Assembly: GCA_021846045.1 (NCBI GenBank)
Contig: JAJZCM010000013.1
Location: 1 to 38,601, forward strand
Length of the DNA: 38,601 nucleotides
Reading direction: 5' to 3'
Source: a bacterium
Lineage (GTDB): Bacteria; Elusimicrobiota; Elusimicrobia; UBA1565; UBA9628
In this document: in pieces, positions 1 to 25,870 of the stretch
Layout: every line of letters starts with the position of its first letter
How positions within the stretch are numbered: position 1 is the first letter of the stretch
The notes under the pieces: model-generated
What the model saw: the letters and a program-made list of their open reading frames with translations, nothing else
What the model was told of the DNA's origin: nothing
The model's database searches: none
Program-made: the position numbers and the translations under genes

Positions 1-38
1 ACGACGCCGCTCTTGTTGCGCTTTTTCCTTACGAACAC
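1..38 (-). CDS. Transposase N-terminus, IS1634-like (partial, runs off window)
   Basis: Only twelve codons are in the window. Reading the minus strand from a GTG at 38 gives MFVRKKRNKSGV. From family knowledge this resembles the start of IS1634-family transposases, which typically open with Met-Phe, a basic stretch and an Asn-Lys/Arg-Ser-Gly turn. The frame differs from cheB, whose stop codon (29-31) overlaps this start. All three frames of cheB close within about 30 bases here, as expected if foreign sequence starts at this point. The peptide is short, so the family call is a recognition-based inference; more sequence to the left would settle it. Confidence 0.45.
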   Translation of the reverse strand, partial: MFVRKKRNKSGV

Positions 39-65
39 ATCTTAATTATTGTGGATAAGACACCC
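1..65 (-). mobile_element. Probable end of an insertion sequence inside cheB
   Basis: Sequence left of about position 65 no longer encodes CheB and contains the start of a transposase-like frame. The exact element end is not visible. The stretch TGTCTTATCCACAATAATTA (minus strand, 42-61) is the likely terminal region, because it lies between the last CheB-like residues and the transposase start. No second end and no target duplication can be seen within the window. Confidence 0.4.
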
Positions 66-985
66 ATAATGCAAGGACTTCTCGTCGAGAGGGAGTCAAA
101 TTTTAGAGGCTCTGCGCAAGTCGGGAAATTAGGTTGAAGTGGCACTTGCCCGGGCTTAAACTTGCGGGCGTTTTCCAAAATGGCGATTTTCCCAACATAA
201 CTTCTTTGAAACATCAACGTTTTGTGGACCGGAGATAAAATGACGTGGCCTTCTCTTAAAATTTCCCCCCCCTTGGCCATGCTCACAGGTTTCCCCAAAC
301 CTTTCGATAGAAAATCCCTAAAGCCATCCCAGACTGGGGCGCTCATGTGCTGACTGACCAGCGTCGCCGCGTTAAAATTATTAGGGAGTTTGAGAAGAAT
401 GTCCTTAAGCATTTCCATCGCTCCGGTGGAGCCTACGATTCCGAGGGCCTTTTGAGATGGCAAGGCATTTTGAGTCATGGATTTGTTGCTACCCTCGCGT
501 TTTTTTAGATATTGGGCGATGAGCGTTTCCTTTGAGCTCTTGGCCAAGCGGAAAATAGCTTCTCCTAATTCCGGAAGCAACCAGCCTAGGGATAAATCAG
601 TGGTCGGTTTGGGGTAAAGGCCGGATGCGCCTATTCTGGATGCCTCTTGAAAAACTTCCGATGCCGTTGGGTAATTGGGCGGCAAAAAAAGAAGAATGGG
701 GATGGGGTTTTCTCTCATCAAATGTTCAATCATGTAAAGGGCGTCGTGTGGTTTTAAGAAAAAATCGAGGATGAGAACTTGCGGAGAATACTTGAGAACG
801 GCAGGAATGATCTCTGAACTTCCATTGAGTTGTGCTATAACCAATATTCCCAATTTTGCAAGGGCTTGGGATAATTTATTTTGAAACTCAGACGTTTCCG
901 CCGCGATTACGACGCGGGGTTGGACAATTTCGCTTGCAGGTTGGTTGGCGAGGCGCGCGGAAGATTCTATACCCTCTGGACCCAT
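29..985 (-). CDS. cheB: CheB-like protein-glutamate methylesterase, 3'-truncated
   Basis: CheB removes methyl groups from (or deamidates) MCP glutamates in the cytoplasm, opposing CheR. Residues about 22-145 form a receiver domain: the phosphorylatable Asp is kept in VLILDFF and the conserved Lys in YPKPTT, but the usual Asp-Asp acidic pocket near the start is replaced by AETS. Residues about 182-318 match the methylesterase domain, with the nucleophile Ser in GSTGA and the catalytic His in SQHM. The third catalytic residue (Asp in GVxLTGMGxDG) is missing: the protein reads IMGVLSTIIKMCS and stops. The family is usually around 350 aa, against 318 here. A run of eight G lies within the coding sequence (265-272). 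Last gene of the che operon, 53 bases after cheR, with no clear ribosome binding site. Probably inactive as an esterase. Confidence 0.8.
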   Translation of the reverse strand: MGPEGIESSARLANQPASEIVQPRVVIAAETSEFQNKLSQALAKLGILVIAQLNGSSEIIPAVLKYSPQVLILDFFLKPHDALYMIEHLMRENPIPILLFLPPNYPTASEVFQEASRIGASGLYPKPTTDLSLGWLLPELGEAIFRLAKSSKETLIAQYLKKREGSNKSMTQNALPSQKALGIVGSTGAMEMLKDILLKLPNNFNAATLVSQHMSAPVWDGFRDFLSKGLGKPVSMAKGGEILREGHVILSPVHKTLMFQRSYVGKIAILENARKFKPGQVPLQPNFPTCAEPLKFDSLSTRSPCIMGVLSTIIKMCS

Positions 986-1038: not shown

Positions 1039-1875
1039 TTAAGCGGAGCTTGCTTTTCTTAGTACGCCCGGATGAATTCTTGATGTGTCAAACAAATGGT
1101 CATAGGCGTTTCCCACTAGGACTTCGGATGCGCCTAAGATAAGGAGCCCACCTACTTCGAGAGCTTTATGGAAATTATGGAGAGCCTTATCTTTCGCTTC
1201 TTGCGCCAAGTAAATCATGGAGTTCCTGCATAAGATGACTTGGCAGTTGGTGACAAAAGGCTCGTTAAGATAGCTGTGTTCGCGAAAGCGGACCAGCGCG
1301 GTTATTTTGGGCAAAATTTTATAATTCCCGTCTTTTTCTTGAGTAAAGAATAATTTGACTCGTTTGCTGGGAAGGGGTAAAACTGATTTCTGGGGGTAAA
1401 TTCCGGCCTTGGCTTTGGCTAGGGCAATGGGATCGACATCGGAAGCGTAAATCGTGATGGGTGGTGGATTGACGCTTAAAAGGCTCATCTCATAGGCCAA
1501 AATAGCTAGACTGTAAGGCTCTTCTCCCATTGAACATCCAGCTGACCATAGGGTTAAAGGATGAGGACGCGAGAAAAGAGGTCTAAAAATATTTCTTTCA
1601 ATATAATCCCAAATCGGAGGATCTCGGAAAAATTCGGTGACGTTGATAGTGAGCGTGTCAAAGAGGATATCCCATTCCTCCTGGTGGGTCGCTAAGTATG
1701 ACTCGTAGGCGGCATAATCATTTTCTTTTAATTTAACGGAGAGAAAACGCGATTGAATTCGTCTTTGTATAAAGGTCGAACGATATTCTCTAAAGTCGAG
1801 TCCCCTGCGGTTTTGGAGGCGCCCTAAAATCCGTAAAAGAATTTGCTCCGGAGAATCTTGGCTTAAAGGAGGCAT
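1039..1875 (-). CDS. cheR: CheR chemoreceptor methyltransferase
   Basis: Transfers methyl groups from S-adenosylmethionine to receptor glutamates. The 278 aa length is normal. The N-terminal helical domain (about 10-75) is followed by TINVTEFFRD and then the SAM-binding Rossmann core with WSAGCSMGEEPYS. Further along are ASDVDPIALAKAKAGIY (the SAM ribose-binding acidic region) and CRNSMIYL, equivalent to the usual CRNVLIYF. No TPR or pentapeptide-binding extension is fused. It lies 18 bases after the MCP gene in the same operon. Since its partner CheB is truncated, methylation may be one-way in this genome, unless another CheB exists elsewhere (inference). Confidence 0.95.
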   Translation of the reverse strand: MPPLSQDSPEQILLRILGRLQNRRGLDFREYRSTFIQRRIQSRFLSVKLKENDYAAYESYLATHQEEWDILFDTLTINVTEFFRDPPIWDYIERNIFRPLFSRPHPLTLWSAGCSMGEEPYSLAILAYEMSLLSVNPPPITIYASDVDPIALAKAKAGIYPQKSVLPLPSKRVKLFFTQEKDGNYKILPKITALVRFREHSYLNEPFVTNCQVILCRNSMIYLAQEAKDKALHNFHKALEVGGLLILGASEVLVGNAYDHLFDTSRIHPGVLRKASSA

Positions 1876-1893: not shown

Positions 1894-3483
1894 CTACCCG
1901 CGCACCGCTTTTATCTCTCCAGCTTGCCCTCTAAGTTTAAAGGTCTTGATGATGTTATTGAGCGTATCGGACATTTCTTGGAGTTCAAGCGATGAAGAGT
2001 AGGTTTTTTGGGCGTCTTCCACAAAACTCTGGCTAAGGCTGGTCACGAGTTCGACGGAGGCGGATATCTCTTCGGTGGTCGCTGAGTGTTCTTCGGCCGC
2101 GGCCGCGATTTGGCTGACCATATCCGTCATTTGCCCGACCACTAAAACGATGCGCTTTAAGGCTTCTCCCGCTTTGTTAGCCAATTCCACCCCCTTGGTC
2201 ACTTCAAGGCCTCCTTCCTCCATTGCTTTGACCGCGCCTTTGGTGTCGGACTGAATTTTGCCGATCATTTGAGAGATTTCCTTGGTCTCTTGAGTGATTC
2301 TCTCCGCGAGTTTCCGGACTTCATCAGCAACGACGGCAAAACCGCGCCCCTGTTCTCCAGCCCGGGCCGCTTCGATGGCGGCGTTTAAGGCCAAAAGATT
2401 GGTTTGGTCGGCGATATCCTCGATGACCTTGATAATCGCGCCGATTTGATCCGAGGATTTTCCCAAAGTGTGAACCACTTGGGTGGAAGCCTGCATGGTT
2501 TGGCTGATGAGCTGCATTCCATGCACTGTTTTATCGACGATTTCCCCTCCTGAGTGCGCTTCGGTCGCCGCCTGTTGAGCGCATTCCGCCGCTCTTTGAG
2601 AATTTCTGGCGACTTCGGCGACAGTTCTATTGAGTTCGACCAAGGCTTTTGCGACTTGGGCGCTTTGATTGGATTGTTTGATTGCGCTGTCTTTAATGGT
2701 CGTGGCTGATTGTCCCATGCCTTGAGCGGAGCGAGACAAAAGGGAGACAGCATCGACAAGTTTTGCAACCACGCTTCCAAGTTTACGAGTGAAATCATTA
2801 AAGCATCGTCCTAGGAGCCCCAGTTCATCGTCTCGGGAGATTGTGATTTCTTTGGTCAAGTCGCCTTCGCCGAGCTCGTTTCCAAACTGGATAAGATCCT
2901 TGATCTGCTTGACCGTTGAGGTCGTGAAAAAATAAGTGGGGATCGTGACGATTAAAATAACAAGAATCAACGCCGCTGTTGAAGCATAGATTCCTCTGTT
3001 GATGGCCTTGGACGTTTCCTGATCGAAGATGGTAATAAGATCGCTGGATGTCTGAAATAGTTGATCGGTCGTTTTCTGATTGTCGGCATGGCTGCTTCCT
3101 ATGTTGGTTTCGGATTTTGAATAAGATTTCGCGATCGCTATTCCTTGCATTTGGAATTTTTCAAAAAGTCCGGTCATTTCCTTAAGTTTTGTAAGAACGT
3201 TTATGTTCTCCCTATAGTGATCCATTAAACCGGAAATAATTTTCGATATGTCCTCAACCTGTGGATCCACCTTCTCCTTATCGTTGATCCAGATCATGGG
3301 GAAGGATGTCACTTGATTGATGAGGGCGGTGACTTTCGTCCTAAGAACCATCACGCGGTCCATATCTTGAACGACAGATTTGACTTTCATGGACATCATG
3401 GTGTTAAATCCTAACACAAATATAATAAAGGCCATGAGCCCGAAGACGCCAAGCATGATTCTTTTTAAAAGAATGCTTTTCAT
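1894..3483 (-). CDS. Methyl-accepting chemotaxis protein
   Basis: Inner-membrane chemoreceptor that controls CheA through CheW. Transmembrane helix 1 is at about residues 8-30 and helix 2 at 167-188. They flank a roughly 130-residue, mostly helical periplasmic domain resembling a four-helix-bundle sensor. A HAMP domain follows (about 189-245), then the long antiparallel coiled-coil signalling domain. The conserved hairpin tip is clear ([20 protein letters not shown]), followed by [12 protein letters not shown]. Length is 529 aa. The C-terminus ([15 protein letters not shown]) lacks the NWETF-type pentapeptide used to tether CheR/CheB in enteric bacteria. It is the only receptor in the operon, 31 bases after the cheC-D fusion, so it is probably the dedicated input. 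The ligand cannot be read from the sequence. Confidence 0.96.
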
Positions 3484-3514: not shown

Positions 3515-4627
3515 TTATGTTAGCTTTTTTATGCGCTGGGCCGATCCCTGAGTAATACGCACTTCTCCGGTATTGGTAAGGAGCTCCACAGTTCTTGCAA
3601 CGGAACCGCCTATTTCTTCTCCAACTAAAAAGATTCCCGCTTTTCGAATTTCCGAACGCAGAACCTCGGCGTTGGACGGGCCGATGGTTCTGTTGATGAT
3701 GGAGCTGGCCATCGGCATTGAAGCTCCTCCTGCGATAAAAGCGGATAATTTCCCTTTGGCCCGGATTTGATTCACGAGAGCGGGAATTGCGGTATCGGCG
3801 TACTTTCCGGGCCTGAGAATAATGGCTTCTTTAGATGAATTTTGCGCGAGCATGACGTGCGCCATCCCCCCCTTCTTCTGCGTGGGATCATAGATGACCG
3901 CAGCCACGCAGGAGCCGAGATCGCTAGCCCTCAGGACCGTAGGGGCGGTCGCGATTTCAAGGCTTCCAATGGATACGGGCACCAAGGCGGATTTGCCCTC
4001 CATGGCCCAAAACCTTAAATTCTCCGAAGCATCGTGGGAAAGAGAAAATAGAAAATAGCCGAATTTCTGGGAGAGTCCCCATGAAATATCGGAATAGAGG
4101 ATGGTTCCTTTTTTATCAAAGCTTTGAATTCGCAAGAGCTTTTCCCAGCTTTTTTGCCATTCAAGGACTTCTAATATTGGAACGGAGGAATAAGACTCCA
4201 TTCTAAACAAAGCTCCGAAATCCTTTAAAATGGCGTTGACGAATATATTGGTCGCTTCCTCCAAAATGGATTTTCGCATCGCGTCGTTATTGATGTTTCC
4301 TGCAAGTCCGTTGGCCGCAAGAATGGAATCGAGGAGAGGCTTTGTCTGAGATTGGGAATACCCGAAAGTCGCTATCCCGTTGAGGTCGCCTTGAACAAAA
4401 ACAGAAACATTGTAGACGAGCTCATGCGGCGGGAAAAAACCAAGAGGAATTGGGGACGAAGAAATTGTTTCTAGTATTCCATAGCGCACGGTTCTAACGG
4501 AGGTTTTAAGCAAATCTGAAAGGGCCAAACATCCGCCAAGAGAAGCATGATTTAATCGTTCTTCAATTTTTTGTTTTTCCTTAATTCCCCAAATAGGCTG
4601 TGGAGCCGGAGTTGATTGACTATTCAA
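3515..4627 (-). CDS. cheD: CheC-like/CheD fusion protein
   Basis: Two chemotaxis modules in one chain of 370 aa. Residues about 15-205 resemble CheC/CheX/FliY CheY-P phosphatases. The active-site pattern (D/S)-x3-E-x2-N is complete at S120-E124-N127, and a first, partial copy is at E23-N26 with Gln where the acidic/Ser residue should be. Residues about 215-370 are CheD, the receptor glutamine deamidase, with LGSCV (Cys240) and GGMAHVML (His257). The Cys-His spacing of 17 equals that of Thermotoga CheD. The catalytic Thr six residues before Cys is Ala234 here, with a Ser next to it. CheC and CheD are usually separate, interacting proteins, so the fusion fixes the pairing. It overlaps the FtsA-like gene by 8 bases, which suggests translational coupling. 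Confidence 0.85.
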   Translation of the reverse strand: MNSQSTPAPQPIWGIKEKQKIEERLNHASLGGCLALSDLLKTSVRTVRYGILETISSSPIPLGFFPPHELVYNVSVFVQGDLNGIATFGYSQSQTKPLLDSILAANGLAGNINNDAMRKSILEEATNIFVNAILKDFGALFRMESYSSVPILEVLEWQKSWEKLLRIQSFDKKGTILYSDISWGLSQKFGYFLFSLSHDASENLRFWAMEGKSALVPVSIGSLEIATAPTVLRASDLGSCVAAVIYDPTQKKGGMAHVMLAQNSSKEAIILRPGKYADTAIPALVNQIRAKGKLSAFIAGGASMPMASSIINRTIGPSNAEVLRSEIRKAGIFLVGEEIGGSVARTVELLTNTGEVRITQGSAQRIKKLT

Positions 4628-6797
4628 AGAAAACCTCTACTTGTGCGCCGTTTTCAAGAGGCGACGTAAAAAACGCCTGTTGCCCGTTGAGGCGCACATA
4701 AAGTTTTTTTCCAGCGGATGAAGACGCGTCAATTTGAACGAATTTCAGTACGTCGGCTAAAAGAGGCGCATGAGCAGGGTTATTCTCAAGAGAGATTGTT
4801 TGCCCGTTGACTAAAATATTTATTTTTTTATCATTTGAAGCCTGGGTTGATTGCGGCAAGGTTTTTTGCAAAGCCTGGGCTTGAGTTGTGATCGTGAAAT
4901 AATTGCCGCGGGTGGTTGGATTTAAGTGATCGTCGGCGCGCCATGGCAAAGGCGCGATTTTACCCGTCGTTGAATTGAGAGAGGGAGGAACGGGCATTAG
5001 TGTGATCTTATCTCCGTCTTGAACGACTCTGTTTAGAGAAGATGCTTCCCCGTTGACTTTCCATCCGCCTTGGGTTTTTTCGGAGGGAGTCAGGATATCC
5101 CCCAAGGGAACGCGCAAAGTGGTTAGGAGCATGCGGTCTTTGAGCGGGGCGTTGAGATTGATGGGGGCGCCGTCTGAAAAAACGCGCAGAGGGATTTCCC
5201 TCATCATTCCATTAACCAAAACGGTGGTTCGGGAAAATCCTATGGCTTCTCCGACTGTTCCATCAAGATGCTGATTGGACGAGGGAATTTTAAATGAAAT
5301 GGAGTCCAATTCATTGACAGGTTCCTCAATAGATACGGCTCGTTGATTAAGAGATATTTCGGGAAGAGGATTGTTGTGCGGCTTGAAAATACGGAATTTG
5401 CCGTTGAGCGTGAAAGTCTTGGAGGGGCCCGGCCAACCAAAAATTTTTTTCGGGGATTGGCCGGACGCAACCAGCGCTGAGAAAATGGTTGGGGATTTCT
5501 CTCCTAGAGTTAAAACAAAAGTTCTTCGCCCATTGACGAACAATTTTTTAAACCGAAGTCCCCGGTTGGTAGCTGCGATTTCAAGCGTTCCAAGAGGCGT
5601 TGCTGTTTCGGGTCCCCAAGAATTTGACGTTTGCTTTTGAATGTAGCGCTCGCAGCGAGGGCGGGAAACCCCCACTTTGAACGCGGATATCTCCAAGGCT
5701 TCCGCCAGCATTTGAGTAAATCCGGGCAACAGGCTTCCTCCGCCGACGCAGAGAACCGCTTGCGGAGCTTTTCCAGAGCTTGCTTCAAGAATGGCTCCCG
5801 CAATACGGGCCGTAAACTCAAGTAAAATGGAGTTGACCACGGCCTGAATGTCTTTAATTAAAATCGTGACCTTTCTTTCAAAAATATCAGAAGACTCAAT
5901 GGCTTGTAGAGGCGCTATGGCAACAAGATTATCCGAAGCCTCTTCGCGGCGCTTCATTTCAAGAGAAAACTTTCGTTTGACCTCTTCGGCGCGCAAAAAA
6001 TTAAGCAGGAATGAATCCGCAATTTTTTCCGTAATAGAATCTCCCGCCTGCGGCACCATCCCAAAAGATTGGATAATTCCTTGAGAAACAAAGGCGATGT
6101 CAGAGGTTCCAGCCCCGACGTCTATTAAGGCTAAATTAAGTCGCCTTAAATCGCGGCTGACGACGGCCTGAAGGGCCGCAATTGGCTCTAGGGTGATGGA
6201 AGAAACTGATAGGCGCAACGATTCCAAGACGTCAATCTGGCTCTCAAGGACGCGATAAGGCAGAAAACTGGCCAAAACCTCGACTTCAAGCTCCTGTCCG
6301 TAATGTCCAAGAGGATTTTGAACAATTTCTCCATCAATCGACATTCTACTAACGACATATCCGACGCAGGAATATTGAGGACGAGCGTCTCCTTCTTTCG
6401 GAGAGAATTTTGAAAGAGCCTCTTCCAAGGCTTTCCAAGTTCCTTCGTCAATTTCCTGCTTGCCAAAAGGGGTTCCATCGGGCCGGCAACCGACTATAAA
6501 TTTGCCTTTGGCTGTTTTTAAGTTTCGTCCGGCGACGGCGATGGCGACTTCTTGAGGCCTTTTGCCAAGGCGTTCCGACAAAGAATCGACGACTTGAGCT
6601 GTAATCTCTGCGACAGCGCGGACATCCTCAATTTGTCCCGCGCTCATGGATCTTGTTGGGTGTTCGCGCATTTCAACATCGAGAATTTCAATCTCAATAT
6701 TTTTGTCTGCCGTCGGCGTGACATGGGCGATGAGCCCCATAACCTTGCGGGTCCCAATGTCGAGCGCAAAAATTTCAGAATAAATTTCTTTTTGCAT
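4620..6797 (-). CDS. Long FtsA/PilM-like actin-fold ATPase with repeat-rich C-terminal extension
   Basis: 725 aa, against about 400-450 for ordinary FtsA. The first 410 residues have the actin/HSP70 layout of FtsA. Phosphate-1 is ALDIGTRKVMG (Asp13). An SHS2-type 1C subdomain is at about 45-115. Phosphate-2 is LALIDVGAGTSDIAF (Asp226). The adenosine motif is VLCVGGGSLLPGF (348-360). The rest (415-725) is not FtsA. It is beta-rich and has recurring hydrophobic-x-Asn-Gly turns at residues about 422, 465, 529, 582, 664 and 703, several followed by QDGDKI/LENGAQV-like segments, suggesting repeated beta-grasp-like units. No C-terminal amphipathic membrane helix like that of classical FtsA is obvious. 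It sits 5 bases after cheA and overlaps cheC-D, so it is an integral operon member. Function unknown: a division, pilus or localisation scaffold is possible. From memory, long FtsA-domain paralogs also occur in Firmicutes. Confidence 0.75.
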   Translation of the reverse strand: MQKEIYSEIFALDIGTRKVMGLIAHVTPTADKNIEIEILDVEMREHPTRSMSAGQIEDVRAVAEITAQVVDSLSERLGKRPQEVAIAVAGRNLKTAKGKFIVGCRPDGTPFGKQEIDEGTWKALEEALSKFSPKEGDARPQYSCVGYVVSRMSIDGEIVQNPLGHYGQELEVEVLASFLPYRVLESQIDVLESLRLSVSSITLEPIAALQAVVSRDLRRLNLALIDVGAGTSDIAFVSQGIIQSFGMVPQAGDSITEKIADSFLLNFLRAEEVKRKFSLEMKRREEASDNLVAIAPLQAIESSDIFERKVTILIKDIQAVVNSILLEFTARIAGAILEASSGKAPQAVLCVGGGSLLPGFTQMLAEALEISAFKVGVSRPRCERYIQKQTSNSWGPETATPLGTLEIAATNRGLRFKKLFVNGRRTFVLTLGEKSPTIFSALVASGQSPKKIFGWPGPSKTFTLNGKFRIFKPHNNPLPEISLNQRAVSIEEPVNELDSISFKIPSSNQHLDGTVGEAIGFSRTTVLVNGMMREIPLRVFSDGAPINLNAPLKDRMLLTTLRVPLGDILTPSEKTQGGWKVNGEASSLNRVVQDGDKITLMPVPPSLNSTTGKIAPLPWRADDHLNPTTRGNYFTITTQAQALQKTLPQSTQASNDKKINILVNGQTISLENNPAHAPLLADVLKFVQIDASSSAGKKLYVRLNGQQAFFTSPLENGAQVEVFFE

Positions 6798-6802
6798 TGG
6801 AT

Positions 6803-8617
6803 TTAAAGATACCCCTCTTGAACATCTAAAATCAGTATCGCGCGGCCGTCTCCAAGAATGCTTGCTCCCCCTATTCCTCTAAGTTGCTTGAGAAATCCGG
6901 TTAAATTCTTAAGCACAATTTCTTGGCGTCCCAGCAGATGGTCGACGGCCAAGGCGAATTTGGATTTGCGGGAGTGGACGATCAGGGCATGTTCATCCAA
7001 AACTCTGCTATTGGAGACTAGTTGTTGACTCTTGATGCGGAAAATATCCCTTAAGCGCACCAGCGGCAGAACCTCATTTCTTAAAACGACGACTTCTTTT
7101 TTATCGATGACGGTTGGTTTAACGTTGTCAAGGGAAATAAGTTCGACGACATCCGACAACGGGATGGCGAAAGTTTGCTCCCCCGCTACAAAAAGAAGCG
7201 CCTGAACAATGGCCAAATTAAGCGGTAGAAACAGAGAAAAACGGGAGCCTTTTCCGATATGAGATTCAATTTCAAGATGCCCATTGACCGATTCAACGGA
7301 TTCTTGAACCGCGTCCATTCCAACTCCGCGCCCAGAGTATTGGGTTACTTTTTCCTTGGTGCTGAGGTTTGGGCGGCAGATGAGGTAAAGAGCTTCCTGA
7401 TCTTCCATTTTCGCCGCCGCGTCGGAAGTAATAATTCCCATGGAAACTGCTTTGTTTTTTACCTTGGAGACATCGATTCCTACGCCGTCATCAATCACAT
7501 CGATGACGGCGTAGCCTTTTTCCTTGCGCGCAGTTAAAGAAAGCGTTGCAGCAGGGCTTTTCCCCGCAGCTAGGCGCGTTTCTTTTGATTCGATTCCGTG
7601 ATCGATGGCGTTTCTAAGAAGATGAACGATGGCCTCGTTAATTTTTTCAAAAAGTACGCGGTCAACCGAGATGCTGTTGTCTTGAATAACAAAATTGACC
7701 TCTTTTTTTAATTCATGAGACACGTCTCTGACTACTCGCCCATAACGCTGAAAAATATCATCAACGGGAACCAAACGAGTTTGAAGGACTTCTTCTTGGA
7801 GTTGTCCGCTTAAGCGTTCGACGAATTTAACCTCCGCTTCCAAAGCGGAAGCGCCCAGTTCCTTGCTGTATTGAATGAGCCGGCTTTTAGAAATGGCAAG
7901 CTCTCCGACTAAGTTCATCATCGCGTCCAAATGGGAAAGTTGGACGCGGACGGTCATTTTTGAAAGGGTGTCGGAGTGCGTGGGCTGATGTTCGGGCTTT
8001 TCCGCCGCGAGAACGGTCGTCGAAGTATCCAGTTCCTGTTGCGCCGCAGATGTTTCCATTAGTGGAGGCATGGGAGCTGTGGGAGCGGGAGGCGTTTGCG
8101 GTAAAGAATGTTCGATAGAAAACGGAATCGGATCGGGAAGCGGCACCGGCTCAGGCATGGCTTGAGGAATTTCTTGGGGGGCTTCTGTTTGAATTTGGCT
8201 GGTCTGCGGGATTAGCGTTGGGGCTGCGCTGGAAACAGCTTCTTTGGAGGAAAAGCTCTTAAGATTCGTCAAGAATTCATCGATATTGATTGTATCTTTC
8301 TCTTCTTGAAATTCCTTAACCAATGCGTGAAAAATATCAAGAGCGTCTAAAAGAAGCTGCGCACTCTCCAGGGTAAAGGATTTTTTTTCATTTTTTACAT
8401 CATCGAGGGCGTCTTCGAGATGATGGGCCAATTCGGCCATTTTATCGTAGCCCATTGTCGCGGAGTTTCCCTTAAGAGTATGGAGAGCTTGGAAGATATC
8501 GCGGCGGTTGTTTTCATCAGCGGCGCTTTTTTCAAGAGCCAGAGTGGCTTGTTCGAGGCGTCCTAGAATTTCTTCGCATTCCCCGACAAACAGAGCGCGG
8601 AGTTTAGCAAGATCCAT
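6803..8617 (-). CDS. cheA: Chemotaxis histidine kinase CheA (no P2 domain)
   Basis: Cytoplasmic kinase at the receptor array; it autophosphorylates and passes phosphate to CheY/CheB. The P1/HPt domain (1-120) carries the phosphorylatable His46 in LHTLKGNSATMGY. A Pro-rich linker (about 125-220) stands where the P2 CheY-docking domain normally is. The P3 dimerisation helices contain DAMMNLVGELAISKSRL. The P4 ATPase has HLLRNAIDHGIE (N box), VIDVIDDGVGID (G1) and YSGRGVGMDAV (G2). The P5 CheW-like domain starts around ALLFVAGEQTFAIPLSDVV. At 604 aa it is slightly shorter than P2-containing CheA. It lies 6 bases after cheW. Loss of P2 is known in several non-enteric systems and implies direct P1-CheY transfer. 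Confidence 0.97.
   Translation of the reverse strand: MDLAKLRALFVGECEEILGRLEQATLALEKSAADENNRRDIFQALHTLKGNSATMGYDKMAELAHHLEDALDDVKNEKKSFTLESAQLLLDALDIFHALVKEFQEEKDTINIDEFLTNLKSFSSKEAVSSAAPTLIPQTSQIQTEAPQEIPQAMPEPVPLPDPIPFSIEHSLPQTPPAPTAPMPPLMETSAAQQELDTSTTVLAAEKPEHQPTHSDTLSKMTVRVQLSHLDAMMNLVGELAISKSRLIQYSKELGASALEAEVKFVERLSGQLQEEVLQTRLVPVDDIFQRYGRVVRDVSHELKKEVNFVIQDNSISVDRVLFEKINEAIVHLLRNAIDHGIESKETRLAAGKSPAATLSLTARKEKGYAVIDVIDDGVGIDVSKVKNKAVSMGIITSDAAAKMEDQEALYLICRPNLSTKEKVTQYSGRGVGMDAVQESVESVNGHLEIESHIGKGSRFSLFLPLNLAIVQALLFVAGEQTFAIPLSDVVELISLDNVKPTVIDKKEVVVLRNEVLPLVRLRDIFRIKSQQLVSNSRVLDEHALIVHSRKSKFALAVDHLLGRQEIVLKNLTGFLKQLRGIGGASILGDGRAILILDVQEGYL
7480..7514. repeat. Perfect 13-bp inverted repeat inside cheA
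   Basis: The arms CTACGCCGTCATC (7480-7492) and GATGACGGCGTAG (7502-7514) are exact reverse complements separated by 9 bases. They lie in the codons of the CheA ATP-binding G1 box and its upstream strand. A stem of this strength in coding mRNA could pause polymerase or ribosomes, but it may simply reflect the local Val-Ile-Asp / Asp-Gly-Val repeat in the protein. Confidence 0.6.
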
Positions 8618-8623
8618 CGGCGG

Positions 8624-9103
8624 CTATTTTTTGCTCCACTCTGTGTCTTCGAGAATCATCTTTTCAATACTCTTGAGAATTTTGTCCATGTTGAGGAGAA
8701 GAATCAAGCGCCTTGGGAGTTTGGCGACCCCAATGATGTATTCGACGTCTATCTTGGGGAGATTCTCCGGAACTGCCTCGATGGCGTTTGGAGGAATGCG
8801 AATAACCCCCACTACTGCATCGACGATGAAGCCGACCATTTGGCCCTCAATGTGCGCTACGATAATGCGGGCCTGTTGCGCGTCGGTTTCGCCTTGAATT
8901 GAAAAGCGCTCCTTAAGATCCAAAAGCGGAATAATCTGTCCCCGCAAATTGCAAATGCCCTTGACGAATTCCGGCATATTCGGAATCAGCGTAATCGAAG
9001 CGGATCGGACAATTTCCTGGATCTGAGTGGCCATGACGGCATATTCTTCCCGCCCCAATCGAAATTGAACCCACTGAACCCCGTCGCCTTTATTTTCCGC
9101 CAT
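8624..9103 (-). CDS. cheW: Chemotaxis coupling protein CheW
   Basis: Adaptor of 159 aa that links the MCP to the CheA P5 domain in the receptor array. The whole chain is one CheW SH3-like double barrel. It opens with VQFRLGREEYAVMATQIQEIV, contains the signature NLRGQIIPLLDLKERF, and continues through RIIVAHIEGQMVGFIVDAV to the C-terminal RLILLLNMDKIL. It begins 3 bases after the cheY stop and ends 6 bases before cheA. No frame damage is visible. Confidence 0.97.
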   Translation of the reverse strand: MAENKGDGVQWVQFRLGREEYAVMATQIQEIVRSASITLIPNMPEFVKGICNLRGQIIPLLDLKERFSIQGETDAQQARIIVAHIEGQMVGFIVDAVVGVIRIPPNAIEAVPENLPKIDVEYIIGVAKLPRRLILLLNMDKILKSIEKMILEDTEWSKK

Positions 9104-9106
9104 GGG

Positions 9107-9520
9107 TTAAGCCGCCTGAGATGGCCTTGGTTTAATGAATCCTTCCAGTTTTGTCTTAAGCCTGTCTTGCTGCAAGGGTTTTACGATGTAGCTGTCCGCG
9201 CCGCAAGCCATCGCCTTCTCAACATCTTTGACGCCGTCCGCTCCGGTTGCCATGATGACCGGAATGCCTTTTAGTTTTGGATTTCGCTTAATCGAAACGC
9301 AGGTTTCAAAACCATCAATGCCGGGCATCATCGCGTCAAGCAAAATCAAAGCCGGCTTCTCTTTTTCCGCGAGTTTAATGCCGTCAGCTCCGCTGGTCGC
9401 TTGCACGACGTCATAGCCGAGAGATTCAAGCATCAGCTTTGTCACGGCTAATACCGTTTGGGAATCATCAACATGGATAATCAAAGGCCTTGTGCGTCCG
9501 TCGCTGCTAAACCAAGCCAT
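9107..9520 (-). CDS. CheY-type single-domain response regulator (second copy)
   Basis: Stand-alone receiver of 137 aa, the diffusible phospho-acceptor of CheA. The acidic pocket is HVDDSQ, the phospho-Asp is in LLDAMMPGIDG, the switch Thr is in MATGADG and the Lys is in YIVKPLQQ. It shares the unusual N-terminal MAWF and most of its sequence with the neighbour at 9601-10005, so the two arose by tandem duplication. An 80-base AT-rich gap separates them. Eight consecutive G (minus strand, 9530-9537) lie 9 bases before the start codon and probably act as the ribosome binding site. Confidence 0.95.
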   Translation of the reverse strand: MAWFSSDGRTRPLIIHVDDSQTVLAVTKLMLESLGYDVVQATSGADGIKLAEKEKPALILLDAMMPGIDGFETCVSIKRNPKLKGIPVIMATGADGVKDVEKAMACGADSYIVKPLQQDRLKTKLEGFIKPRPSQAA

Positions 9521-9600: not shown

Positions 9601-10005
9601 TTACTCGTTGACAGGCATGAGTTTGATGAATTTTTCAAGCTTGGCCTTGAGCCGATTTTTTTCAATGGGCTTGACTAAGTAGCTGTTGGCGCCGGAAGCC
9701 ATCGCTTTTTCGACGTCTTTAACGGCGTCAAGCCCCGTCAACACGATCACCGGGATATCCTTAGTTTTAGCCTCTCTTTTTAATTTGACGCAGGTTTCAT
9801 AGCCGTCCATGACCGGCATTCGAGCGTCAAGCAGTATAATCGTGGGGATTTCTTTTTCCGCCATTTTAATGGCGTCGGGACCTGTGGTCGCTTGAATGAC
9901 ATCGACCCCCAAGCTTTCCAGGATTAGTTTTACGGTCGATAAGATGATCTGCTCGTCGTCTACATGCAGGACCACGGGTTTTGTGCGATTTTGAAACCAA
10001 GCCAT
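9601..10005 (-). CDS. CheY-type single-domain response regulator (first copy)
   Basis: Receiver domain alone, 134 aa. The acidic pair is in HVDDEQ, the phospho-Asp in LLDARMPVMDG, the switch Thr in VLTGLDA and the Lys in YLVKPIEKNRL. No output domain is present, so it signals by protein contact or serves as a phosphate sink for CheA. It is paralogous to the adjacent receiver (9107-9520). A good ribosome binding site, AGGAGG, lies at 10016-10021 on the minus strand. It follows the receiver-kinase gene by 20 bases. Confidence 0.95.
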   Translation of the reverse strand: MAWFQNRTKPVVLHVDDEQIILSTVKLILESLGVDVIQATTGPDAIKMAEKEIPTIILLDARMPVMDGYETCVKLKREAKTKDIPVIVLTGLDAVKDVEKAMASGANSYLVKPIEKNRLKAKLEKFIKLMPVNE

Positions 10006-10025: not shown

Positions 10026-11087
10026 CTATTTAACCGTTTTCGGCGCCGTTTTTAAATTCTGCGAATGAGGCAAGCGAATCAAGACGCAAGTGCCGGCATT
10101 GTCAGAAGCGGAGAGAGTGATGACTCCCTCATGCGCCAAAACTATTTTTTCAGCCCAACTGAGGCCCAAACCAGAGTGATCTTTTTTTAAAGTAAAAAAC
10201 GGTTCGAAACAGTGTTCTTGTGCGTAAGGTGTGATCGCGGCGCCTTGATCTTGAATGGAGATATAAACCGAAGAATGCATGCGGTCGACATAAACTCCGA
10301 TGCTCAAGGTTCCTCCAGCTTTCTCCATCGCTTCTTGGGCGTTATTTAACGCCTCTTTTATCGCCCTCTCCATCCACTTGGAGTCAAGCAATATGTTAGA
10401 CAGGCCGGAAGCGTCTATTTCCCATCGCAGGGTTATTTGTGGAGATTGAGACACTGCGTGCCGGGACACGATTTCTTTAAGATAGGAATCGATGGAAACA
10501 GAGGTTTTTTCCAAGGCAATTGGGCGCATGATTTCGGAATAGTTGTCCAAGAGTTTAGTCGCTTGCTCGACTGCTTGTTTGACCAAGTGGAAGGTTCTTT
10601 CTCCGAGGGCCTTATCTTCTTTTTTTGTCGAAAATAAATCAAGGAGGCTTGGGAGACTGCCGATGTTGTTGCGAAGCTGATGGATAAATGTTTCCGGCGA
10701 ATTCCAGCCAGAAGTTGAAAAAATGGGCGCGGTCTCTTCCGAATCCAAAAGCGCGTCGACTTTTGAGCGTAAAATCGCTTCGGAATAAGGCTTGAATAAA
10801 AAACTGTTCGCCAGTTGGTGAATCCACGGGCTGTAGCCTTGGGATGAACTCGTAATTAAAATGGGAAAAGATTTTCCTTCTTTTCGGGCGATCTGGCATA
10901 TTTCAAAGCCGGAGACATGCAGCAAATTAAAATCAAGAAGAATGAGATCAAAGGATTTGTTTTTTATGTAATCAACAGCCGCTTGTCCGTCAGATGCTTC
11001 CGTCACTTCATGGCCAAACTTATGCAGATAGCCTGACGTCAGTTGACGCATGAGATTAGAGTCATCAACAACTAATACTTTGGCCAT
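10026..11087 (-). CDS. Receiver-histidine kinase hybrid without sensor domain
   Basis: First gene of the che operon, 353 aa. Residues 1-115 are a receiver domain (VVDDS, phospho-Asp52 in LLDFN, Lys in LFKPYSE). A divergent dimerisation/phosphoacceptor region follows, with a candidate His136 in FIHQLRNNIGSL. The HATPase domain (about 225-345) has an N box (EALNNAQEAM), a G1-like ISIQDQGAAIT and a G2 GLGLSWAEKIVLAHEG. There is no membrane segment or PAS/GAF sensor, so the input is probably phosphorylation of its own receiver, for instance by CheA. This REC-HK layout is known in adaptive phosphorelays; the link to this pathway is inferred from position. Confidence 0.85.
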   Translation of the reverse strand: MAKVLVVDDSNLMRQLTSGYLHKFGHEVTEASDGQAAVDYIKNKSFDLILLDFNLLHVSGFEICQIARKEGKSFPILITSSSQGYSPWIHQLANSFLFKPYSEAILRSKVDALLDSEETAPIFSTSGWNSPETFIHQLRNNIGSLPSLLDLFSTKKEDKALGERTFHLVKQAVEQATKLLDNYSEIMRPIALEKTSVSIDSYLKEIVSRHAVSQSPQITLRWEIDASGLSNILLDSKWMERAIKEALNNAQEAMEKAGGTLSIGVYVDRMHSSVYISIQDQGAAITPYAQEHCFEPFFTLKKDHSGLGLSWAEKIVLAHEGVITLSASDNAGTCVLIRLPHSQNLKTAPKTVK

Positions 11088-16213: not shown

Positions 16214-17293
16214 CTAAGACAAATTCTTAATTGTTAAAGTTAATTTTTGGATTGTTTGTGATGGATGCGGCATGTTCAAGCGTTGATAGCCATCTTTCAT
16301 TAAGGATAGTTTTTCTTGGCTATTTTCCCCCAACAGCAACTTCTCCAAGAGAGCCGGAACCTTTTGTTGGATATTATTTTCAGAGACGATGACGGCGCTT
16401 CCTGCTTTTTCCAAAACTCGGGCGTTTTCTGTTTGGTGATCATGGGTTGCGTTGGGATAAGGAACGAGAATTGCCGGTTTTTTTAACGCACAAAGTTCCG
16501 AAAGCGTGCTTCCGCCCGCCCGGCATAAAACCAAGTCCGCCGCGCCGTAAAGTTCTTCCATTTTCTCAAAATAGGGAAAGACCTTGGCCGCTAGGGGCTG
16601 GTTTCCGTAGTTTTCCTCGATAGCTTTTGAGTCTTGGCCGCTGATATGAATAACTTGAAGATGATGGGGATAGCGGGTGGATAAGTCTTTGAGAATTGCG
16701 GGGATTTGGAGATTGATCCCTCTTGCGCCTTGACTTCCGCCAAAAACAAGGAGAACCGGCCATTGGGGGTCAAATCCCAAAGTTCTTTTCGAATCGGTTA
16801 AATTACGCGGCTCCCATAAAACTTGGCGAATGGGCGTTCCGATGAGTTCTCCCCCCGTTCCTGGAAGTCCTCTCAGCAGTTTTGCCCCTAGAAATCTGCA
16901 AAGTTGGTTTGATAAGCCCAGGATGACATTGGATTCGTGGATTAGCCGGGGCCTTCTTTTTATAAAAGCGGCGAGGATTGTGGGGACGGAGAGATACCCG
17001 CCCATTCCGATTACGATATCAGGTTTAAAGTCGGAAACAATATTGAGGCAAAGTTTAAACGAGGAAAATAGGCGAGTTAAAAACTGAAACCAGCCGTAGG
17101 CGCTTCGGGGCATTCCGCGCATGGGGATCTCTACGTAAGGAAAGTCTTCCGCGTCCAAAACCTTGCGGGCGGCATCTTGTTGGCGCACGATAAAAAGGAC
17201 TTTCCATCCCTCCCTAGCCAAAGATTGGGCTGTCGCCAGTCCGGGATAGAGATGTCCTCCGGTCCCACCCGCGGCAATCAATATCTTTTTCAC
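16214..17293 (-). CDS. murG: MurG, lipid II synthase
   Basis: UDP-GlcNAc transferase that converts lipid I to lipid II on the inner face of the membrane. It is 359 aa, two Rossmann domains. The N-terminal glycine-rich loop is GGTGGHLYPGLA. The second G loop is FGGSQGARGIN. The UDP-sugar-binding signature is CRAGGSTLSELCALKKPAILVP, followed by HDHQTENA. The start overlaps the ftsW stop by 4 bases. It is the last gene of the dcw cluster here. The usual murC and murB do not follow, and aspS comes next after about 30 bases. Confidence 0.97.
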   Translation of the reverse strand: MKKILIAAGGTGGHLYPGLATAQSLAREGWKVLFIVRQQDAARKVLDAEDFPYVEIPMRGMPRSAYGWFQFLTRLFSSFKLCLNIVSDFKPDIVIGMGGYLSVPTILAAFIKRRPRLIHESNVILGLSNQLCRFLGAKLLRGLPGTGGELIGTPIRQVLWEPRNLTDSKRTLGFDPQWPVLLVFGGSQGARGINLQIPAILKDLSTRYPHHLQVIHISGQDSKAIEENYGNQPLAAKVFPYFEKMEELYGAADLVLCRAGGSTLSELCALKKPAILVPYPNATHDHQTENARVLEKAGSAVIVSENNIQQKVPALLEKLLLGENSQEKLSLMKDGYQRLNMPHPSQTIQKLTLTIKNLS

Positions 17294-18387
17294 GCCGCTT
17301 TGGCCTGCCTGGAGATGTTGAGGAGAATTCCAACCCCGATGAGGCTGGACAGTAAGGACGAACCTCCGAAAGAAACAAAAGGAATGGGAATTCCTTTTGT
17401 GGGCAAGAGTCCAATGGACATCGCCATGTTAAAAAAAGCCTGGAGTGAGATCAGCCAGGTAATTCCGGCGGCAAGGAGACTTCCGAACAGATTGGGAGCA
17501 TTTTTCGCGATTTGAGATCCCCGGATGGCGAAAAGCGCGAAGAGAAAGATAAGCCCCGCCCCTCCAATAAGCCCCAATTCTTCACAGAGAATCGGGAAAA
17601 TAAAATCCGTATGTGGAGTCGGCAAATACATGAGCTTGATGTTTGATGCCCCTAGGCCTTGCCCGAAAACACCGCCTCTTCCAACTGCGATCAAGGATTG
17701 GGCCAATTGATAGCCGGTGTTTTTTGCATCATGGAACGGAGAAAGAAAATTTAAAATGCGGGCTCTTCTGTAGGGGAAGCGGATTAGTTCATAAGCAATG
17801 ACTGGAATAGAGAGCGAAAGGAGCCCGAGAATATGCCTGAGCTTTACGCCGGCGGTAAAAAGAAGGCCAAGTGAGACGGTGAAAATAAGAACGGGCGTTC
17901 CCAAGTCCGGTTCTCTGGAAACAAGAAAGATAATGGGCGAAAGAAGAATAGCCGGCATTAGAAGCCCCGAGACGGGAGAACGGAGGCGGCTTCGCTTTTT
18001 ATCCAGATAATAAGCGAGAATAACGACGCAACTAATTTTTGCGAATTCCGACGGCTCGATTCCCAAGGGGCCGATTTTAATCCATCTTCGAGCTCCCCCC
18101 ACTTTATGTCCGAGAAGAGCCCATAAAAGGCCGATCACCGTTACCAAAAGAATAGGCGCGATTTTTTCACGATAGCGGTTGTAATTAACGCGGCTGACTA
18201 GTCCCATGGCCGTAACGCCGAAAATAGCCCAAAATAATTGTCGTTTTAAAAAATAAAAAGACTGTCCCAGATGTTGTTCGGCCCAGATGGCGCTGGCCGA
18301 GTAAATCATGATGAGGCCGAAAAACATCAGAATAAGAACCACCGACAGGAGAGAAAAGTCAAACGGGGGATTTTTTTCGGAAGCCAT
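17290..18387 (-). CDS. ftsW: FtsW, lipid II polymerase (SEDS family)
   Basis: Septal peptidoglycan glycosyltransferase, an integral membrane protein of 365 aa with about ten hydrophobic segments. SEDS signatures include the N-terminal LMIYSASAIWAEQ and SEFAKISCVVILAYYLDKKR. The large loop contains YRRARILNFLSPFHDA, and the C-terminal motif is GIPIPFVSFGGSSLLSSL. It should work with the class B PBP encoded at 23736-25409. It follows murD after 8 bases and overlaps murG. FtsW is preferred over RodA on operon position. Confidence 0.93.
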   Translation of the reverse strand: MASEKNPPFDFSLLSVVLILMFFGLIMIYSASAIWAEQHLGQSFYFLKRQLFWAIFGVTAMGLVSRVNYNRYREKIAPILLVTVIGLLWALLGHKVGGARRWIKIGPLGIEPSEFAKISCVVILAYYLDKKRSRLRSPVSGLLMPAILLSPIIFLVSREPDLGTPVLIFTVSLGLLFTAGVKLRHILGLLSLSIPVIAYELIRFPYRRARILNFLSPFHDAKNTGYQLAQSLIAVGRGGVFGQGLGASNIKLMYLPTPHTDFIFPILCEELGLIGGAGLIFLFALFAIRGSQIAKNAPNLFGSLLAAGITWLISLQAFFNMAMSIGLLPTKGIPIPFVSFGGSSLLSSLIGVGILLNISRQAKAA

Positions 18388-18395
18388 TAAGGGCT

Positions 18396-19769
18396 CTAAC
18401 TCTTGTAACGTTCCAGAATTTTCTTGAATTTTTTCCCGCGCTCTTCAAAATTTTTGAATTGGTCAAAAGAGGCGCAGGAGGGAGAGAGAAGCAAAATATC
18501 TTCCGGCTCTCCGATTTCAAAGGCTCTCTCGACGGCTTTATCCAGGTTCTCGCAATGAGAAATAGGGACAATCCCATCTAGTTCGTTTTCAATTTTCTGC
18601 GCGGCGCTTCCGATGGTCAGAACGGCCTTAACCGATTGGGACAGGAAGGGTTTAAGCGGCGCATAAGGGCTGCCTTTATCGAGTCCGCCCAGAATTAAAA
18701 TAAGTCTTTTTTTAATATCTGAAAAGGCTTTGAGGGCGACAAGTGTTGAGTCAACGTTGGTCGCTTTTGAGTCGTTGACACAGCGGATTTGACGATAAGT
18801 TCCCGCTTCTTCCAATCGATGTTCGACTCCCTTAAATTGGGTGAGGGCTTTTTGGATGGAACGAGTGGAAATTCCCGACGCTAGAGCGAGTAGGATCGCC
18901 GCCATGGCATTTTCCAGGTTGTGACGTCCAGGAAGGTTCGGCGGCGTAAAGGAGAAGGGAGAGTCTTTGAGACTCAGGCGTGCATGAATTTTTCCTCCGT
19001 CAACCCAGGCGTGGCTTGATTTAGGGTCGTCGCCGAAAAAAAGCCTTTGGGCCGGGCATTCTCGGGCTAGTTTGACGGTTTCAAGATTAAGAGAATTAAA
19101 AATGCAAAAATCCGAGGCGTTTTGATCGCGAAAAATACGGGCTTTGGCCCGAATGTAATTTTCAAAACTTCCATGATGGTCGAGATGATCCGGCTGAATG
19201 TTGAGCAGGACTGAGACCTTGGGATGAAAAAAACTGCTGTCCTCCAATTGGTAGCTTGAAGATTCGATAACTAAAACATCGTTGGGGTTTGCGTCCAGCA
19301 CGCAAGCTGAAACGGGGGTTCCAATATTGCCGCAAACATGGACGTTCTGCCCGAATGCGAGTCCCTGGTTGAAAATGTCTCCCGTCAAAGTGGTCGCCGT
19401 CGTTTTTCCATTGGTGCCCGTGATGGCAACGATGTGGTCGGTTCTTGAAAAAGACAAAGCGACTTCCATCTCGCTGAAAATGGGGATGCCCGCGTTTTTG
19501 ATTTTTTTTATGAGAGGCGCGCTCCAAGAAAGACCGGGGCTTTTGACCGCAAAGCCGGAAGAAAGAGCCTCTTGTCCAGGACCGTTAGCCTCCCAAGAAG
19601 CCCCTTGTGGAAATTCTTTGATAAGAGAGGAAATGTCTTTTTCCTGGCGGCTGTCGGTCATGAGAACCTCAAAGCCTTGTTTGAGAAGCAGTCGCGCGGC
19701 GGCGATTCCTGAACTCCCCAGTCCGATGATGCAGGCTTTTTTTTCTTTAAAATCAGATGGGGAAAACAT
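18396..19769 (-). CDS. murD: MurD, UDP-MurNAc-L-Ala:D-Glu ligase
   Basis: Cytoplasmic ATP-dependent Mur ligase adding D-glutamate, 457 aa. The N-terminal Rossmann domain binds the UDP moiety (GLGSSGIAAARLLL). The central ATPase has the P-loop AITGTNGKTTATTL and ENYIRAKARIF, with the expected carbamylated Lys region. The C-terminal domain has the ligase signature HRLEEAG and NDSKATNVDSTLVALKAF. It lies 4 bases downstream of mraY in a compact operon. Confidence 0.97.
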   Translation of the reverse strand: MFSPSDFKEKKACIIGLGSSGIAAARLLLKQGFEVLMTDSRQEKDISSLIKEFPQGASWEANGPGQEALSSGFAVKSPGLSWSAPLIKKIKNAGIPIFSEMEVALSFSRTDHIVAITGTNGKTTATTLTGDIFNQGLAFGQNVHVCGNIGTPVSACVLDANPNDVLVIESSSYQLEDSSFFHPKVSVLLNIQPDHLDHHGSFENYIRAKARIFRDQNASDFCIFNSLNLETVKLARECPAQRLFFGDDPKSSHAWVDGGKIHARLSLKDSPFSFTPPNLPGRHNLENAMAAILLALASGISTRSIQKALTQFKGVEHRLEEAGTYRQIRCVNDSKATNVDSTLVALKAFSDIKKRLILILGGLDKGSPYAPLKPFLSQSVKAVLTIGSAAQKIENELDGIVPISHCENLDKAVERAFEIGEPEDILLLSPSCASFDQFKNFEERGKKFKKILERYKS

Positions 19770-19773
19770 AAAA

Positions 19774-20859
19774 TCAGCGCATCTTAAGCGATGAGAGCGC
19801 GATCAGCATGAGAACAATTCCAATGATCCAAAACCGTACGGTTATCTTGGGTTCAGGCACGCCTTTAAGTTCGAAATGGTGATGGAGGGGCGCCATCCTG
19901 AAAATCCGCTTTCCCTTCCTCAACTTGTAGGACCCCATTTGCAGAATGACCGAGAGGGTTTCAACGACGAAAATTCCGCCGGCGATGGGTAAAAGAAGTT
20001 CCTGCTTGACGCAGAGTGAGGTAAGCGCGATAATGCCGCCTAAAAAAAGGGAGCCCGTGTCTCCCATGAAAACTTCCGCAGGATAAGCGTTAAACCATAA
20101 GAATCCCAAACTCCCCCCCGCCACCGCCGATAAATAAACGGCGATTTCTCCCGCCCCTTCGACATGGATAATTCGTAAATAGGAGGAGAATTTGAGGTTT
20201 CCGGCCACATAGGCGAGGATCCCATAGGTGATGGCAAAGAGAATAACAGAGCCGATGGCGAGGCCGTCTTGTCCATCGGTGAGATTGACGGCATTGGAGG
20301 AGGCGACGATCATGATGGTCGCAAGTATGAAATAAAACCGGTCGAAATTAATAAAAATTTCTTTGCTGAAGGGAACGCTTAAGATGGTCGCATATTCGGG
20401 ATTGGGAGGATAAAGGGCCAAATAAAAAACAATGAGGAGCGCGCTAGCCGATTGAATTATGAATTTGGAGCGAGAGCTTATTCCGGCGGGGTTCTTGGCT
20501 GAGAATTTCACGTAATCATCCCAGAAGCCAAGGGCGGCCAGGATGGTCGAGGCGCAAAGCATGAGGGGCGTAAAGCGGTCATCTGGGCGCATCCACAAAA
20601 TAGCCGACAGGGAAACGACAAAGAAAATTAAAACTCCTCCCATCGTGGGGGTACCCTGTTTGGGGAGATGAGTTTGTGGACCGTCTTTTCTCTGGACTTG
20701 CCCGAGCTTTTTCCTGCGGAGAAAATCAATAAACTTTGGACCGAACAAAAGGGAAAGAATAAGCGAGGTTACTGCGGCTCCGGCGGCTCTAAAGGTGATG
20801 TATTCAAAGATGTTAAAAATGCCGGAAGTTTTTTTGAGCGCGATGAGAAGATAAAGCAT
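19774..20859 (-). CDS. mraY: MraY, phospho-MurNAc-pentapeptide translocase
   Basis: Integral membrane enzyme making lipid I from UDP-MurNAc-pentapeptide and undecaprenyl phosphate. It is 361 aa with about ten transmembrane segments. Conserved loops are present: GTPTMGGVLI near the N-terminus, the catalytic NLTDGQDGLAIG loop (the usual Leu between the two Asp is Gln here), FMGDTGSLFLGG, and APLHHHFELKG near the end. The start abuts the murF stop with no gap. Both active-site Asp residues are kept, so activity is expected. Confidence 0.96.
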   Translation of the reverse strand: MLYLLIALKKTSGIFNIFEYITFRAAGAAVTSLILSLLFGPKFIDFLRRKKLGQVQRKDGPQTHLPKQGTPTMGGVLIFFVVSLSAILWMRPDDRFTPLMLCASTILAALGFWDDYVKFSAKNPAGISSRSKFIIQSASALLIVFYLALYPPNPEYATILSVPFSKEIFINFDRFYFILATIMIVASSNAVNLTDGQDGLAIGSVILFAITYGILAYVAGNLKFSSYLRIIHVEGAGEIAVYLSAVAGGSLGFLWFNAYPAEVFMGDTGSLFLGGIIALTSLCVKQELLLPIAGGIFVVETLSVILQMGSYKLRKGKRIFRMAPLHHHFELKGVPEPKITVRFWIIGIVLMLIALSSLKMR

Positions 20860-22230
20860 TTATTTATTCACGGACTTGGAGACGGCTTCATAGACATTTT
20901 CAAGTTTCATTGCGCGCGAGGCCTTGAAAAGGCAGGCTGAGTTCTTGTTGATCGCTTTCTTGAGTTCATTGATCCAGTCTGCCGGGTTCTCTTTATAATG
21001 CAGAGCGAAAGACGGTTTTCTTTTCGCGATGTTCTCTGCGGCCGTCTTCATTTCCGGCCCGGCCAAATAAATTTCAGCGACAGGTAAAGTTGACAGCCAC
21101 TCCCCCAACTCCGCATGAAAACTCGCGGATTGTTCTCCAAGTTCCTTCATATCTCCCAAGATAAGAATTTTATTTTTGTTCGGAAATTCCGTTATGAATG
21201 ATTCGATGGAGGCTTTCATGGATGCGGGGTTGGCATTGTAGGCGTCTAAAATAATTTCGCATCCGGATGGGTGGGAGAGTTTTTCCATTCTCATGGCAAA
21301 AGGCTTATATTTTTCAAGACCCGCGCGGATCGTTTCTGGAGTAATTCCCAAAGCCCAAGCCGCGGCTGCTGCCGCCGCCGCGTTGTATTTGCTTAATTTC
21401 CCCAAGGCTTTGAGTTGAACGATTATTTTATGCCGGTCGATGATGATTTCTTGTTCTGAAAAGCGGATGCGGCACAGAGGCGCTTCGCCGAACGTAATCA
21501 CTCTTCCTCCCAAACGGCCTTCCAGGCTCGACAACCAGGGGTCGTCGCTGTTAATGACGATTGGCGCGTCTTGAGAAACGTAGTCCAAGAGTTCGAGTTT
21601 TGTTTGAAAGTTGGCCTCCATGCTTCCGTAGAACTCAATGTGATCGGGGCCGATATTGGTGAAAACGGCAAGAGTAGGCTGCGCGATTTGAGCGATTTCC
21701 TTAATGTCTCCGGGGTGGGAATCCGCCAATTCAAAAACCGCCCAGCGATGGGTGGAATCAAGGCTGAGCACAGATAGCGGAACTCCGATTTGATTATTCC
21801 AGTTCCCGGGACTGGCGCATACGGGGCCCAACTCGCTTAAGATTAATTTGAGCATTTCTTTTGTCGTCGTTTTACCGTTGGAACCGGTAATACCGATGAC
21901 CGGGATATCGAATTTCTTTCGGTGGTGAGCCGCGAGAGCTTGCAGCGCCCGAAGGGAATTAGGAACGGCGATGAGGTGTGGAGGTAAAGGCGGCTTGAGG
22001 TCGGGCAACTTTGATTCTTCCACGATCCATCCGGACGCCTTTTGAGCTAATTCTGAGTTGAGAAAAGAATGAGCGTCGTATTTCTCCCCTTGAAGCGCCC
22101 AAAAGGCTTCGCCGTTTTTGATGGTTCTTGTATCGGTAGAAATGGAATCAAAGATATCGTCGGCGGAGCCCGCGATCAGGCGTCCTCCGGCGAATCTGGC
22201 GGCATCTTGCCATCTAATATCAAGCTTCAT
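20860..22230 (-). CDS. murF: MurF, D-Ala-D-Ala adding ligase
   Basis: Cytoplasmic Mur ligase completing the pentapeptide, 456 aa. The N-terminal UDP-binding domain contains SISTDTRTIKNGEAFWAL, the typical MurF/MurE STDSR-like element. The ATP loop is GITGSNGKTTTKEML. The region from the centre to the C-terminus includes YNAAAAAAAAWALGI and DAYNANPASMKAS, the MurF-specific NANP motif. It overlaps murE by 4 bases and directly abuts mraY. Confidence 0.97.
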   Translation of the reverse strand: MKLDIRWQDAARFAGGRLIAGSADDIFDSISTDTRTIKNGEAFWALQGEKYDAHSFLNSELAQKASGWIVEESKLPDLKPPLPPHLIAVPNSLRALQALAAHHRKKFDIPVIGITGSNGKTTTKEMLKLILSELGPVCASPGNWNNQIGVPLSVLSLDSTHRWAVFELADSHPGDIKEIAQIAQPTLAVFTNIGPDHIEFYGSMEANFQTKLELLDYVSQDAPIVINSDDPWLSSLEGRLGGRVITFGEAPLCRIRFSEQEIIIDRHKIIVQLKALGKLSKYNAAAAAAAAWALGITPETIRAGLEKYKPFAMRMEKLSHPSGCEIILDAYNANPASMKASIESFITEFPNKNKILILGDMKELGEQSASFHAELGEWLSTLPVAEIYLAGPEMKTAAENIAKRKPSFALHYKENPADWINELKKAINKNSACLFKASRAMKLENVYEAVSKSVNK

Positions 22231-23732: not shown

Positions 23733-23735
23733 ACC

Positions 23736-25430: not shown

Positions 25431-25438
25431 GGGTAAAA

Positions 25439-25786: not shown

Positions 25787-25870
25787 ACCCCCCCATCCCC
25801 CCAATCCTCGTCTCTCTCTTTCCAAAGCGGAAACGCTTATTGTATTGTAGATTATTAGTAATTACGCACG

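Follow-up and report, generated by a model that had tools for sequence, protein, structure and literature searches.

What does an actin-fold protein do inside a chemotaxis operon? The question is raised by the stretch of DNA analyzed here in its entirety (the window; 38,601 nucleotides of contig JAJZCM010000013.1, assembly GCA_021846045.1), which comes from a bacterium of the phylum Elusimicrobiota. A long FtsA/PilM-like protein of 725 amino acids, which we call FtsAx, is encoded on its reverse strand between genes for CheA and for a fused CheC–CheD. An earlier note, made from the sequence alone, had claimed this open reading frame, and we confirm it at 4620..6797 with an ATG start; the window genome is referred to below as G000. 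The coupling-type spacing claimed for both sides of the gene is also found: a gap of 5 bp follows the cheA stop (6803), and the last 8 bp of FtsAx overlap the cheC–cheD reading frame, which begins with TTG at 4627. In comparison with an orthologue from the same genus, dN/dS is 0.073 for the whole gene, 0.054 for its N-terminal half, and 0.093 for its C-terminal half, and the adjacent che genes give values of 0.03–0.06 in the same comparison. These low ratios in both halves indicate that FtsAx is a real gene and that each half is under purifying selection.

There is nothing unusual about the chemotaxis genes around FtsAx, and databases already contain the long FtsA-like family under the default names FtsA and PilM. 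Domain matches define the operon, all of it on the reverse strand. It is headed, as in genomes G004 and G011 and as a conserved feature of this family, by a 353-amino acid protein that joins a receiver to a histidine-kinase ATPase domain (10026..11087); two CheY-like receivers (9601..10005 and 9107..9520), CheW (8624..9103), and a CheA of 604 amino acids with Hpt, dimerization, HATPase, and CheW-like domains (6803..8617) precede FtsAx. It is followed by the CheC–CheD fusion (370 amino acids; 3515..4627), which keeps the CheC phosphatase motif, SILEEATNIF, in the second half together with the GSCV motif of CheD, and then by a methyl-accepting chemotaxis protein with HAMP and MCPsignal domains (1894..3483), CheR (1039..1875), and CheB (29..985). 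CheA, CheW, CheY, CheC, CheD, CheR, CheB, and the receptor are held in common with the CheC/CheD chemotaxis systems of the Bacillus and Thermotoga kind; the operon differs from those systems by an additional gene, for the actin-fold protein, placed between those for CheA and CheC, and by the absence of flhA from the surveyed carriers of FtsAx. Elsewhere in the window, a 106-amino acid open reading frame at 30318–30638, downstream of a Cys/Met PLP enzyme, has no Pfam match.

The FtsA-like actin fold proposed in the earlier note is borne out by profile matches, which describe an intact fold of the FtsA/PilM type in residues 1–400 (5598..6797). FtsAx matches Pfam FtsA with an E-value of 2.6e-13 (50.8 bits; cut-off 31.8) and Pfam MreB with 2.5e-8, and the profile of the family matches solved structures of FtsA (2.5e-28), PilM (2e-12), and MreB (4.5e-11). 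All 12 homologues keep the phosphate loops, DIGTR (residues 13–17) and D-x-GAGTSD (226–233), and the adenosine-loop GG (352–353) without change, so FtsAx is likely to bind ATP.

The C-terminal half of the protein (residues 405–725; 4623..5585) contains at least three homologous modules, at approximately residues 414–505, 515–605, and 650–725 of a tail of about 310 residues. In profile comparisons, the three segments match one another with hhalign scores of 35–53, against at most 15.5 for controls composed of actin segments of FtsAx and column-shuffled profiles. The earlier count of about six x-Asn-Gly turns in this half was fair: we find seven (residues 422, 465, 529, 582, 664, 704, and 716) where shuffled sequences lead one to expect 1.6 (p ~0.0005), and this excess, together with the homology of the modules relative to both sets of controls, rules out chance as the source of the turns. 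With respect to the fold, the tail of the window protein matches ThiS at 5.3e-4 (20.9 bits, under the 22.5-bit cut-off), and among the 12 members of the family Ub-Mut7C is matched by 11, ThiS by nine, TGS by five, and moaD_arch by four. The matches are short, mostly below the curated cut-off, and fall at differing positions in different members, so the weight of evidence lies in their agreement and not in any single match. Taken with the homology of the modules, these signatures support the repeated beta-grasp-like modules of the earlier note and suggest that the tail is a string of ubiquitin-like domains of the ThiS/MoaD/TGS kind, as a candidate fold predicted from sequence. AlphaFold models made from the single sequence have a pLDDT of 32 for the C-terminal half and 50 for the last module, and in that low-confidence model the last module has a beta-beta-alpha-beta-beta order; a Foldseek search of the PDB with the same low-confidence model returned nothing at E <= 0.001, the best match (0.82) being ubiquitin-like. 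FtsAx modules thus match the ThiS, MoaD, TGS, and Mut7-C models weakly but repeatedly and in independent members, and they differ from those domains in being arranged in tandem on an actin fold and in the absence of the sulfur-carrier Gly-Gly: the protein ends in Phe-Glu, which makes a sulfur-carrier role unlikely.

FtsAx orthologues are encoded by 11 other genomes of the phylum, which together represent six families. CheC or CheC–CheD lies downstream in 12 of 12 loci, either directly or past one response regulator, and CheA lies upstream wherever the contig reaches that far, either directly or past one or two small regulator genes. Both sides are visible in the loci of G000, G004, G011, G007, G009, G041, G074, G121, G065, G135, and G113; in G002, the contig ends inside FtsAx and only the CheC–CheD side can be seen. 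Among 295 genomes of the phylum, FtsAx was found in 11 and CheA in 24. CheA is present in 10 of the 11 carriers, the eleventh being G002, and in 14 of 284 non-carriers (Fisher p 1.7e-11, a value that ignores the relatedness of the genomes, the carriers spanning six families). Neither FtsAx nor CheA was found in G001 and G003, which belong to the genus of the window genome. In trees, FtsAx of G065, a member of the window's class, groups with the FtsAx of G135, which belongs to another class, and the same pairing is seen for CheA; the two proteins share their inheritance, and these pairings suggest that the cassette travels together. Linkage to che genes, the test that the earlier note had set for the long FtsA form, is therefore complete in the 12 loci of the phylum.

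In clusters outside family f1, a protein with response regulator and PAS domains is encoded between CheA and FtsAx (L051 10655-11407, L054 8329-9081, and L050 10570-11427), and in G041 a GAF-PAS protein takes its place; it is possible that this small protein is a direct partner of FtsAx. The CheB of G135 (L054 5006-6622) has a C-terminal haem-NO-binding (HNOB) domain (28.7 bits; cut-off 25.5), and CheB proteins of similar length at L051 13172-14806 and L052 5304-6932 align with it from end to end, a hint that adaptation may include the sensing of a gas.

FtsAx is absent from related che sets in G186 and G014. In G186, CheA is followed directly by CheC, CheC, and CheD, and in G014 CheA–CheD is accompanied by CheC; in both genomes, CheA is related to that of the carriers. 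FtsAx is thus dispensable for the core pathway. We consider it rather unlikely, and yet the strongest of the alternatives, that FtsAx organizes or localizes the array of chemoreceptors and CheA instead of acting downstream of CheY. Actin-fold proteins often position cargo, and systems of the ParC/ParP type organize and localize arrays elsewhere; the fixed place of the gene beside CheA, and a loss in G186 that spares the core che genes, are what would be expected of a positioning factor. However, the most constant neighbor of FtsAx is CheC, a phosphatase of CheY~P, and this points to the output side of the pathway.

An action on the divisome or the cell wall, by which che signaling would modulate growth or division, is improbable in our judgment. 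The nearest solved relatives of FtsAx are FtsA proteins and its best NCBIfam match is ftsA, as such a role would lead one to expect; however, the score against TIGR01174 (114.9–117 bits) is below the equivalog cut-off of 175.85, and a canonical FtsA of 413 amino acids adjoins FtsZ on another contig of the window genome. FtsAx and its homologues are separated in the tree from ten canonical FtsA proteins of the phylum (support 100/100). The separate FtsA with FtsZ, the separate clade, and the score below cut-off together rule out FtsAx as the cell-division FtsA. The two proteins have in common the actin fold, the 1C/SHS2-like insert region, and the ATP loops; unlike FtsA, FtsAx has a long beta-grasp-like tail, is not encoded beside ftsZ, and has no amphipathic membrane-targeting helix at its C-terminus, as judged by the terminal sequence and by a hydrophobic moment over the last 14 residues of 0.17 versus 0.47 for canonical FtsA. 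The latter ends in PAWLKSMTSLFQELF, a plausible membrane-targeting helix. Division is a less likely target of FtsAx, given the normal FtsA/FtsZ pair in the genome and the lack, in FtsAx, of a membrane-targeting helix of the FtsA type. The second phosphate loop of the canonical FtsA (L031 470-1711, contig C69 of G000) reads DIGGQSVSIGVY and so departs from the DIGGGTxDIAVY-like motif usual in FtsA; FtsAx, unlike the canonical FtsA of its own genome, keeps the full motif. The window also contains a dcw cluster at 16214–27431 (mraZ-rsmH-pbp-murE-murF-mraY-murD-ftsW-murG), from which ftsA and ftsZ, on another contig, are absent. MreB is likewise encoded elsewhere in the genome.

That FtsAx might be a chaperone- or reactivase-like ATPase governing the exchange of CheC and CheD with receptors, with no part in output, is distinctly improbable: weak similarity to DDR and EutJ reactivases in 12 of 12 members and the CheC/CheD genes downstream in every locus are in its favor, but the DDR and EutJ matches are weaker than the FtsA match and reflect the shared actin/HSP70 fold, and in G186 and G014 CheC and CheD occur in the absence of FtsAx.

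If FtsAx acts on the output side, the question becomes what the pathway controls. FlhA was found neither in the window genome nor in any surveyed carrier, and 3 of the 295 genomes of this largely non-flagellated phylum have it. PilT is present in all 11 surveyed carriers and in 242 of 295 genomes (association with carriage not significant, p 0.22); its near-universal presence in the phylum makes it uninformative about the target, and no pilus genes were recognized among the scanned neighbors of the che clusters, so the pilus is a best guess by elimination. Judged by co-occurrence, flagella are a disfavored target and type IV pili a possible one. FtsAx belongs to the same superfamily as PilM of the type IV pilus platform but has no pilN, pilO, or secretin neighbors. 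The window protein scores 23.9 bits against PilM_2 (cut-off 27) and 31.6 against TIGR01175 (cut-off 133); PilM_2 matches 11 of 12 members, and some homologues exceed the Pfam cut-off. The window genome has its own PilM-PilN-PilO-secretin locus on contig C24, away from FtsAx, which rules out FtsAx as the pilus PilM. The pilT-ftsA-ftsZ operon of Clostridium perfringens concerns the division FtsA (PMC6958937).

Outside the phylum, we found full-length, co-linear homologues of FtsAx in two Bacillota: a protein of 719 amino acids annotated as PilM in Anoxybacillus amylolyticus (WP_066327715.1) and one of 711 amino acids in Acetoanaerobium noterae. They are 26–29% identical to FtsAx, share with it the actin part and the tail of NG turns and beta-grasp-like modules, and form one clade with it. 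No che genes were found in the neighborhoods of these two homologues except CheR approximately 11 kb away in Acetoanaerobium. The earlier note had held scattered homologs with no che linkage to be evidence against its proposal; linkage is complete within the phylum, but the two Bacillota homologues are not che-linked, and the protein family is, on these two examples, wider than its che role. We know of no function for the long FtsA/PilM-like proteins of Bacillota. A search of viral contigs with the FtsAx profile detected no relative, and a scan of genome contigs detected a single weak one, with an FtsA-like match confined to the actin part. Neither the che association nor the beta-grasp-like tail is described in the papers searched, most subscription papers being outside that scope.

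The explanation that we favor, tentatively and as a real possibility, is that FtsAx is an actin-like scaffold or adaptor dedicated to the che system, tying signaling by CheA, CheY, and CheC to type IV pili or to polarity. The anatomy described in the earlier note is upheld, and the output that it suggested, a polymerizing scaffold steering division, polarity, or pili, is kept as a hypothesis. As a dedicated part of a CheA–CheY–CheC–CheD chemosensory cassette, FtsAx would bind ATP through its N-terminal actin fold and would probably self-assemble in an ATP-dependent manner or dock at a site as FtsA and PilM do. The string of beta-grasp-like modules would form an arm that binds other proteins; CheY~P, CheC, or the neighboring response regulator is the probable partner. 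The che signal might then act locally on the machinery of the type IV pilus or on its pole, our best guess as to the target, in place of the flagellar switch. The more specific proposition, that an actin-like protein with ubiquitin-like arms, as a filament or as an adaptor, is a dedicated effector that replaces the flagellar switch as the target of CheY and CheC in non-flagellated bacteria, we regard as somewhat doubtful. Chemosensory steering without flagella is poorly understood beyond a few well-studied groups, and the conserved placement of an actin-fold protein between the CheA and CheC genes, seen in several families, gives genetics a direct way into the problem of non-flagellar steering. 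If our interpretation is correct, this would be the first chemotaxis-linked role known to us for the long FtsA-like family.
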